DNA of 62,140 nucleotides from positions 1 to 62,140 of the IMG/VR virus record IMGVR_UViG_3300031851_000023; one strand, 5' to 3'. The notes beneath the pieces are model-generated. The model was not told the DNA's origin. It ran no database searches and was given only the letters and a program-made list of their open reading frames with translations. Numbering within the stretch: position 1 is the stretch's first letter; each line of letters begins with the position of its first letter. A program made the position numbers and the translations under genes. Positions 16,421-35,075 of this stretch are shown here, piece by piece. The DNA is from a virus.

Positions 16421-17221
16421 TTATCCGATCATATCCATAGGTGGGATGGCGTACTTACTGAGAACTTCGCTTTCGATTTTCTCAATCTCGCCTAATGCGT
16501 CTGTATACAATTCTCTACCATTAAGCGTGATACCGCCAGGTAGTTGAACGTTGTTATATTTAATCAAGTTTTGACCCCACTGTCTCTTCATAAGAGCAGT
16601 AGCATATTTCTTGACAAACATATCATTATTCATCTCTGTAGCATCTGTAGGATCAATCATCCTATGTGCCTCAATTACAAGATAGGTATCTTCTTTGAGG
16701 AATGCTTTATTGATGTCAAGATATAAACGATCACGACGCTGTGTATATCTGAACTGTTGGAACGAACCATTATTCAGAATCATATCTAGAGTTTCTAGAT
16801 ACTGCTTATTCATAAAGTAGTTGACAATATCAAGAGATCCGAATGCATATAGATCATTCAGAAACATCTGATACTCAACACCAAAGAGATTAGATCTAAT
16901 TGAGTTGCTGACTAAACCAAAAACTTTGCTGATGCCAACTACATGATCTGGAACTGGAATATAGTTGGTAGACTCTTCCCAATTTGTTGTTCCAGATGAT
17001 GTTGTTGCTTTATTATTGAAACGAGTTATATCGTCAGCAGTAATCTCATGCCTCAGAAAACATCTCTCCATACCGTTGTAACAGTTCTCTTGGAAGAACT
17101 GGTAAGTATCATCAATAACATTATTTACTTGCTCATCATCAATGTTAACTTGTAATACAGGCTCACCAAGTTGCCTCTTACAATATGTGATAAGATCAGC
17201 TCTTGAATTTGGAGACGCCAT
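16421..17221 (-). CDS. gp13: Neck protein
   Basis: A 266-aa head-tail connector protein (T4 gp13 is 309 aa), starting [20 protein letters not shown], a characteristic cyanophage gp13 opening. It binds the portal side of the neck with gp14. An in-frame TTG three codons upstream (17230) sits closer to the AAGGGA sequence, so it is an alternative start; I prefer the ATG because it yields the familiar N-terminus. Its leader lies inside the hairpin described separately. Confidence 0.9.
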
Positions 17222-17227
17222 TACACA

Positions 17228-17263
17228 CAAAAATCCCTTCTTACCTATTTAGGAAGAAGGGAT
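17228..17263 (-). terminator. Hairpin terminator overlapping gp13 leader
   Basis: A perfect 10-bp inverted repeat, ATCCCTTCTT (17254-17263) with AAGAAGGGAT (17233-17242), read on the minus strand and followed by TTTTTG. It closes the transcript of the small coiled-coil gene. The downstream arm is also the likely ribosome-binding region of gp13, and the loop carries a late promoter. Confidence 0.8.
17246..17252 (-). promoter_or_regulatory. Late promoter CTAAATA inside terminator loop (gp13)
   Basis: CTAAATA on the minus strand lies between the two arms of the hairpin, 25-31 bases before the gp13 ATG. Transcription from it would begin within or just past the downstream arm, so the new mRNA would lack the upstream arm. 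Confidence 0.7.
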
Positions 17264-17270
17264 CTGAGAG

Positions 17271-17468
17271 TTATTCTTCTGTTGTTTCTGCCGCTGGTGC
17301 TGCTTCTTCTTCAGGTTTGTCTTCTAGAAGACCTAGAGTTTCTAGACCTCCTTCCAGTTTAATTTTATATTCTTTTGCTTTGACTAGATTTGTTTCTAGT
17401 TCAGCAATTTGCTTTTCAGTTGTAGCAATTTGCTCTTCAAAATTAGACTTAAGTTGTGCGGGATCCAT
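17271..17468 (-). CDS. Small coiled-coil protein, unknown
   Basis: A 65-aa protein starting MDPAQLKSNFEEQIATTEKQ. Residues 5-45 form a strong heptad pattern (EKQIAELETNLVKAKEYKIK), and the C-terminus is acidic and alanine-rich. In T4 the fibritin gene wac lies before gene 13; this short coiled coil occupies that place but is far too small to be fibritin. A GTG three codons upstream is a possible alternative start. It has its own late promoter and terminator, so it is a single-gene unit. Confidence 0.7.
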   Translation of the reverse strand: MDPAQLKSNFEEQIATTEKQIAELETNLVKAKEYKIKLEGGLETLGLLEDKPEEEAAPAAETTEE

Positions 17469-17496
17469 AGTTATCACATGTAATTGTGTATATCAA

Positions 17497-33700: not shown

Positions 33701-35075
33701 CTTGATCTGATGTAGTTAACGCACCGAGAGAAATTGCTGGATTGAAAGTTAATGATTCTACCGAAACACTAGTTGCAGTATAACTAATATTTTGAATTAA
33801 GTTTGCTGGATTTGTAGATAAAATATCACCTACAGCATATCCAACTCCACCATCTGTTATAGTAACTGAGCTAACAGATCCTAACGATGAAATCGTATAT
33901 ACAAGATTTGGTGATGGTTGTCCATACGGGGGAGTTATAGTTACTGTAATGGATCCAGCAGTTGTTGGAGTATCAGATAAAGTTAAAATGTAATCTCCAC
34001 TGTCTCCATCAATACTTAAGCTAATTGTTGTATTAGCAGCAAGAACAGCAGTTCCACCAGTTTTTGTTATAGTAGAACCGCCAACAAATTGATTATATTG
34101 TGCTTCTGTTATAACAATTATAGTAGATGGTTCTCCTTCTTCGGTAGCAATTGTTAATGAAACCCCAGTTACTTCTGTCTTAAGACTGAGAGTTTCTCCT
34201 ACCAGATATCCACTTCCTTTAGAAGAGAAAACTAGAGTACTTGTGTCAATACTACTCGGATTATTTGAAATAACAAATGTTGCTCCACTTCCTCCACTTG
34301 TTTGAGTGATGTCATTTTCATCAATATATGACATCGTGCTGTTATCTGGAGAGAGCACATCTCCATTTAAATATCCAGAACCAGATTGTGAAATTGTAAT
34401 TTCCGTGACAGATCCTGAACTGTCTACAACTACGGTTGCTACAGCTCCTGAACCATTTCCTCCAGTAAGACTTACATCATCATAACTATTTTCTTCATAT
34501 CCGCTTCCGGCATTACTTACAGATCCTTCAATATTTGGAACTGTGAAATTAATTGATGTAGAGTTTTCTGGAGCAGACCCACCAGTAAGTGTAGCACCAA
34601 AATACTGACCAGATGTTAATCCCGAAGCGTTTGTAGTTACTGAACCCAAAAATGCTTCTACTACAATTGTAGATTCTGATCCACTACCACTGCCACCAGA
34701 AAGAGGAACTTCTGTATATGATCCTGCTCCGTACCCACTTCCTGCAGTAGAAATTTGAGTTCCTGTAGTATCTAATTCATTTTTAATGACATATAAGTCA
34801 TTATACGCACTAACTTGAGAACTTGAATATTCAAAGATCTTTCTTGATCCAGAAACAAAAGAAAGAATATTTAAATCTGACTTAAATAAACCAAGAGAAT
34901 TATCGCTTATAAAAGATAATGATGGTATATTTTTAGATCCATCTCCAAGTTTTAAATTTCCTGTGGATAAATCGGAACCACCAGCGGCAATGTTGAATAC
35001 TTGAGATCCAATATCATTAATTTTATTCCTTTGTTGTTCAAAGGTATCTGTTCTAGCGACATTAATTGCTGGCAT
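30774..35075 (-). CDS. Large tail/baseplate protein with cupredoxin-like domain, 1433 aa
   Basis: The N-terminus MPAINVARTDTFEQQRNKIN with FNIAAGGSDLSTGNLKLGDG is a familiar cyanophage structural opening and loosely recalls the N-termini of T4 gp9/gp10 (I-N-x-x-F pattern). Residues ~110-250 hold GSGY-type beta units. Near 610-755 lies a cupredoxin-like region: H631 in SDHPFTLSAF, then C747, H750 and M753 in YYYCTNHQNMGG, with about 70 foreign residues between. The second half contains two similar ~150-aa blocks (RFNTESQQYEGY and RFNTSALQFEGYDG) followed by a C-terminal beta domain. It is probably a baseplate or short-fibre component. The start overlaps the preceding 68-aa gene. Confidence 0.75.
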   Translation of the reverse strand: MPAINVARTDTFEQQRNKINDIGSQVFNIAAGGSDLSTGNLKLGDGSKNIPSLSFISDNSLGLFKSDLNILSFVSGSRKIFEYSSSQVSAYNDLYVIKNELDTTGTQISTAGSGYGAGSYTEVPLSGGSGSGSESTIVVEAFLGSVTTNASGLTSGQYFGATLTGGSAPENSTSINFTVPNIEGSVSNAGSGYEENSYDDVSLTGGNGSGAVATVVVDSSGSVTEITISQSGSGYLNGDVLSPDNSTMSYIDENDITQTSGGSGATFVISNNPSSIDTSTLVFSSKGSGYLVGETLSLKTEVTGVSLTIATEEGEPSTIIVITEAQYNQFVGGSTITKTGGTAVLAANTTISLSIDGDSGDYILTLSDTPTTAGSITVTITPPYGQPSPNLVYTISSLGSVSSVTITDGGVGYAVGDILSTNPANLIQNISYTATSVSVESLTFNPAISLGALTTSDQVQIQGGVIGDTEVTTASTGGTADSSLSNISPTSTSGNGVGGLFDISFDENGEVISATITPDDGGYNYQANDTVTFSGASIGASGNTVATVTSVSSDGTLVDVLSVIDDGSNITSIVVADGGQFQSTSLVKDGSNAYPISAATSENRYQIGGVTTPNLTFYVGDTIVISYPSDHPFTLSAFRDGIYSPSLVSAVTGSVTAASPVMTLNSTTGILAGMLVTTEGAGSIPDSLIVVSVDGPTQITLSGNATVTGAISATFTGGEYTEGVTRVGTDLTISVTENTPSPLYYYCTNHQNMGGVDNQEASITIDANNPRTFGSGLLLNVISVTSSNIFNTDVENSTVSIPTLVSSQVNTVDQTLTGTLTADSIIATDINVPEITSATDVTITAIDSLIITSTDIAFKDKITIDTDGNIDSAGYFKTSSYAEFNEKLHLEEDTISSKAGFDINIIPAVDQVVKIPTTTSLNIPFGTTAERPTLLAENGSIRFNTESQQYEGYNATTTAWSSLGGVRDQDGNTYIKAEETVGANDNTLYFINDDINTINVTPNSLEFVNVKKQSSVNTSAPNFVNWNANTPVVAGDYLKWKNNLYEVIVDGTTGGPGSPPVDISGSNFLNGNATLVYSQLAVAPIVFEDIEEVRIDPTGSSPIVINNDLKLSENIISSVISDILIAPNSGKKVKIDTNTTLVLPSGADADRGSPDQGSVRFNTSALQFEGYDGVNWGSLGGVKDVDQNTYIIPELSPGSNENILYFYNDNNNTLRLTATALDFDTVDTIRSVTSNEFELTSSLLTLDNASTTIDNTDTTKTFIHSNKPALELGLSSGLNVDPILRFQDTGDIFYNIGFGTGVYDGVKIFDSELKEFELADYIISTKKITLVKGSSEIGSAVLYSTVTANGCRCTILSKNTATGNKSMMEYGIINKSTTDIYNNEYGGLNSSQDGFTTTFDFTDENEVRATVTLTNDHLVGSSVEFTVVTHALK

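Follow-up and report, generated by a model that had tools for sequence, protein, structure and literature searches.

A hairpin before the neck gene gp13 of T4-like cyanophages probably joins an intrinsic terminator to a late promoter

We analysed a hairpin just upstream of the neck gene gp13 in a virus fragment of 62 kb (the whole stretch of 62,140 nucleotides is called the window below), and judging from sequence comparison we think it likely that this one element fuses an intrinsic terminator with a late promoter and insulates the junction between gp13 and the genes before it. The hairpin is followed directly by a U-tract and has a late promoter motif in its loop. Its stem covaries among relatives, the motif does not vary, and its placement before gp13 is unique. 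An earlier note on this DNA had proposed a terminator and a late promoter in one hairpin, and this part of its proposal appears to be sound.

By identity of this region (99.9% to Synechococcus phage ACG-2014j, of the family Kyanoviridae, and 97.7% to S-CAM4), the source is a T4-like cyanophage close to these two phages. All of the genes that we discuss around the gp13 junction are on the minus strand (Table 1). The small upstream gene is a 198-nt CDS in the ACG-2014j annotation and is named T4-GC_834 in the annotations of S-MbCM7 and S-PM2. Comparisons confirm the downstream gene as that of the gp13 neck protein. There are 49 bases from the stop codon of the small gene to the gp13 ATG, and the hairpin takes 31 of them. 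When we re-read the sequence, the earlier description of a 10-bp stem, TTTTTG after it, CTAAATA in the loop and a gp13 start 11 nt beyond the stem was exact to the base.

Table 1. Positions in the window of the gp13 junction and of the parts of the hairpin.
Feature	Position	Strand	Basis and remarks
gp13, neck / head-tail adaptor gene	16421-17221	-	ORF and comparisons; first of gp13-gp14-gp15
gp13 ATG	17221-17219	-	
Small upstream gene, T4-GC_834 family, hypothetical	17271-17468	-	ORF
Whole hairpin, ATCCCTTCTT-CCTAAATAGGT-AAGAAGGGAT	17263-17233	-	31 bases
Hairpin 5' arm, ATCCCTTCTT	17263-17254	-	sequence; pairing backed by covariation; would be missing from RNA started in the loop
Hairpin loop, CCTAAATAGGT	17253-17243	-	sequence
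Putative late promoter core in loop, CTAAATA	17252-17246	-	motif enrichment and comparison of gp13 upstream regions
TAAATA in loop	17251-17246	-	
Hairpin 3' arm, AAGAAGGGAT	17242-17233	-	sequence, folding and SD scan; holds weak AAGG ribosome-site candidate
Predicted late transcription start (+1), in 3' arm	17240	-	T4 spacing and purine preference
TTTTTG after stem	17232-17227	-	
U-tract of putative intrinsic terminator	17232-17228	-	T-run kept in hairpin-bearing relatives

The isolated hairpin folds at -16.7 kcal/mol, and none of 200 shuffles was as stable. RNA folding also pairs CC with GG, which makes the open loop shorter than the one given in Table 1. As is looked for in an intrinsic terminator, the stable stem-loop has a U-run (UUUUU) directly after it, and this run is conserved among relatives; the U-tract at gp13 is short (5-6, then GUGUGU). 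A simple terminator scan of the window did not list this hairpin because the loop exceeds the length which that scan allows, and scans written for the purpose do detect it. A search of the entire window against Rfam gave no family reaching the gathering score.

To follow the element across relatives we compared 167 regions upstream of gp13, taken from annotated phages and two scans of viral contigs, in which the database matches are not independent samples. TAAATA is found in all 167, mostly 24-29 nt before the ATG, and in 145 of them a hairpin with 6 bp or more encloses it. The U-tract is present in nearly all of the hairpin forms (a T-run of at least 5, with few exceptions). The earlier note had named loss of the loop motif from a kept stem as evidence against its proposal, and we saw this in 0 of the 145 hairpins. 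Phages of the window's own clade, with gp13 at 86-100% identity, share an almost unchanged element, which varies less than the gp13 coding sequence downstream of it. In distant relatives, with gp13 at about 52% identity, the stems have other sequences, each enclosing [A/C]TAAATA; the arms are GTCCCTGCCTG/CAGGTAGGGAC in Syn1, ATCCCTATCTG/CAGGTAGGGAT in S-PM2 and ATCCCTACATG/CATGTAGGGAT in L149.

Compensatory changes in the stem, which the note had suggested looking for, are indeed there, along with changes to G-U and around a constant TAAATA. Among 37 distinct hairpins, 95.0% of the pair cells hold standard pairs and 38 cells have double-sided changes, compared with 13.9 in shuffles (0 of 500 shuffles match). 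Sliding the partner by one base collapses both measures. One stem pair is seen as U-A, G-U and A-U, and such G-U pairs favor an RNA helix.

There are 22 gp13 loci where the hairpin is lost, and all of them retain TAAATA upstream of gp13, so the motif is independent of the hairpin. It seems likely from these loci that the hairpin was built around a pre-existing TAAATA. One gp13 lineage (L145-L148, L153, L155, L156) has a separate terminator with TAAATA directly after its U-tract, a layout that also occurs elsewhere in these genomes. Among the named T4-like phages that we compared, the element is absent at gp13 in P-SSM2, S-ShM2, Syn9, P-TIM68, HTVC008M and T4.

The combined genomes of ACG-2014j, S-PM2, S-RSM4 and Syn1 contain 60 strict terminators, and four of these have TAAATA in the loop, one per genome and each at gp13. 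In another 13 the TAAATA is at most 40 nt after the stem. Because the in-loop cases in these four full genomes are orthologues, they count as a single origin and not as four. Exact 35-base copies of the window element are present in at least 120 viral stretches. Among the matches listed, the next gene is gp13 in 99 of the 99 copies with enough downstream sequence, and in 4 of 107 the gene on the upstream side does not resemble T4-GC_834. In L029, L041, L055 and L059 the upstream gene is replaced at the element's edge. Since the upstream gene differs there among copies and relatives, we take the edge to be a site of upstream-gene exchange; the element itself, by its placement, is tied to gp13. 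We also considered that it could be a mobile cassette, and rejected this because the readable exact copies, among the matches listed, are only before gp13.

We made some further observations on the upstream side. The stretch of the window from 17306 to 17474, in the small upstream gene, has 91.7% DNA identity to Syn1, while the gp13 proteins are only 52% identical, so there is likely a recombination junction near the hairpin. In L083, L084, L085 and others, the upstream stop codon is inside GAATAAATAC, which gives a second TAAATA about 20 nt 5' of the loop. RNA begun at this second motif would run straight into the putative terminator.

The late promoter motif that we looked for is NATAAATA, or [A/C]TAAATA, and at gp13 it is CTAAATA, 24 nt before the gene. 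We calculated promoter-motif statistics on the same four cyanophage genomes. At 92 intergenic sites the base preceding TAAATA is A in 61% and C in 28%, compared with 14% and 11% within coding sequence. At 6-7 nt after the motif, purines predominate. TAAATA is present 15-51 nt before genes in 43 of 155 annotated upstream regions; for hexamers of the same letters in this interval, the overlapping ATAAAT reaches 33 and every other one is at 15 or fewer. The T4 late motif spans -13 to -6 (PMC1524935), and this spacing together with the purines is what puts the predicted +1 in the 3' arm. The genes for gp55, gp33 and gp45 are all three carried by cyanomyoviruses (PMC2984593).

When TAAATA was counted loosely, in hairpin loops of any kind, it showed no genome-wide excess over hexamers of the same composition; late promoters are therefore not enclosed by hairpins as a rule, and the case for a fused element rests on the gp13 locus. 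We did see other late motifs in hairpin loops, without a U-tract. Syn1 (GU071105.1) has a second one at 78513, in the loop of a perfect 10-bp hairpin (TTCCTAACCT-CCTAAATA-AGGTTAGGAA) that precedes a 2758-codon ORF, and Syn9 (L215) has ATAAATA in the loop of a 9-bp hairpin at 33917-33954, just before the portal gene gp20.

We believe that the element would work in the following way. Polymerase arriving from the upstream genes would transcribe the hairpin and halt at the U-tract just before gp13, and the hairpin would terminate the RNA of the T4-GC_834-family gene. In the late phase of infection, CTAAATA in the same 31 bp would be recognised by the phage sigma factor gp55 together with gp33 and gp45. 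The late RNA would begin within the 3' arm, which would then also be the 5' end of the late mRNA, and it would carry gp13-gp14-gp15 behind a leader of about 20 nt. With TAAATA in the loop and the predicted +1 in the 3' arm, this RNA would lack the 5' arm and for that reason could not form the terminator. The element would shield the neck-gene unit from upstream transcription at almost no DNA cost. One compact, conserved palindrome of 31 bp would be the stop signal for one RNA and the start signal for the next, with the new RNA evading the stop through its own geometry, and in marine phages the gp13 junction would be a natural case on which to test cleanly how late transcription units are insulated from one another. 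A coupled version, in which polymerase does not leave the DNA on release at the U-tract but, lying over the loop promoter, is reloaded there by gp55, seems very improbable to us; if it were true, the element would convert upstream transcription into gp13 starts.

The earlier note went further and proposed that the hairpin, besides terminating, keeps the ribosome-binding site of gp13 hidden in read-through RNA, and that only late RNA exposes the site. Folding of both RNA forms, which it had recommended, agrees with this for the window's clade: the 3' arm has a near-zero unpaired probability in read-through RNA and is largely unpaired in RNA from the predicted late start, and the AUG is unpaired at about 0.6 (0.32 for its third base) in the former and at 0.7-0.8 in the latter. 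At 11 nt from the AUG, the end of the stem falls within a ribosome footprint, and AAGAAGGG in the downstream arm is the sole purine-rich run, as claimed. However, it is a poor ribosome-binding site, because it matches AAGGAGGT over no more than 4 nt (AAGG, a marginal SD, at an aligned spacing of about 10-11), and the AUG is not within the stem. No 4-nt SD is found in 101 of 155 genes of these phages, so SD sites are dispensable here. In the S-PM2-type relatives, which have a longer leader, the equivalent stem segment is at least 15 nt from the ATG and SD-like runs, where present, are outside of it. There are precedents for the full model in T4 e, soc and I-TevI (PMC3014915, PMC2988022), but we consider it unlikely as a whole. 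Silencing of the ribosome site does not hold up as a conserved function, although it is possible, going by the folding, that hiding of the site contributes in the window's own clade. As a separate observation, AGGA/AGGG is enriched in the 14 nt that follow promoter-position TAAATA sites in the four cyanophage genomes (AGGA follows at 16% of late promoters vs 3.5%), and ribosome binding may not be the reason why AGGGA persists in the 3' arm.

We weighed three further alternatives. If the terminator alone mattered and the loop TAAATA were a by-product, the strong stem and U-tract would be expected, and the motif is short and A/T-rich; but TAAATA is invariant although the stem bases vary, it survives at the 22 loci without a hairpin, and [A/C]TAAATA is enriched before genes, which leaves this reading highly unlikely. 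A hairpin that protects the 3' end of the upstream mRNA or serves in its processing, with no real termination, would fit a stable stem directly after the upstream stop codon, but the conserved T-run after the stem is not needed for such a role and we give this explanation very little credence. In phage N4, DNA hairpins present promoters to the polymerase, and the gp13 palindrome, which is centred on the promoter core, could likewise act as DNA, with an extruded hairpin or cruciform presenting the core to the late polymerase. Against this, G-U pairs are mismatches in DNA (they occur in 13 of the 37 hairpins at one position and in fewer elsewhere), the conserved U-tract indicates RNA, and a strong palindrome is found at only 5 of the 92 promoter-position TAAATA sites, so we find it hardly plausible.

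The leaders of T4 e, soc and I-TevI have hairpins with internal late promoters that sequester the SD and/or the AUG (PMC3014915, PMC2988022). The gp13 hairpin would resemble these in that a late start inside the hairpin (predicted for gp13) drops the 5' arm. It differs from them in having a U-tract, in an AUG that lies beyond the stem, and in a link to the SD that is weak and unconserved, AAGG being paired but marginal. Both functions also come together at gene junctions where a late motif simply follows an ordinary terminator, and the same genome has such cases (window 43477-43432 and 1206-1170), but there TAAATA is 11-12 nt past the stem, whereas at gp13 it is inside the hairpin. In the literature that we could search, we found no description of a late promoter core in a true terminator loop, conserved with covariation at a core gene, and an earlier description is possible.

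A close comparison is with PeSLs (promoter-early stem-loops), which, as far as they are summarised in PMC4503421 (citing Arbiol 2010; Comeau 2014), are composite promoter-terminator motifs of T4-like phages. Both have a terminator stem-loop and a promoter in one small intergenic element, and upstream genes can switch right at the edge of the gp13 element. However, the PeSL promoter is of the early sigma-70 type, whereas the gp13 element has a late motif, in the loop. In contrast to the many copies and gene shuffling of PeSLs, the gp13 element is not scattered: there is one copy per genome in the four genomes, with the upstream gene sometimes replaced, and the readable copies, among the matches listed, are all before gp13. 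A sigma-70-like promoter is present at 11 of the 60 terminators (18%) vs 2% of control T-runs, its -35 being in or beside the loop and its -10 beyond the U-tract, which fits PeSLs as that summary describes them. Several have TTGACG in the loop as the -35 and, at a spacing of 17, a -10 immediately beyond the U-tract (ACG-2014j, KJ019089.1, near 183269, 137900 and 49841; Syn1 184254 and 169039; S-RSM4 51402), and by these features they are early composite promoter-terminators. We read the gp13 element as a variant of the composite promoter-terminators known from T4-like phages that has a late promoter in place of an early one, and it would extend them to late transcription of a gene for a core structural protein.
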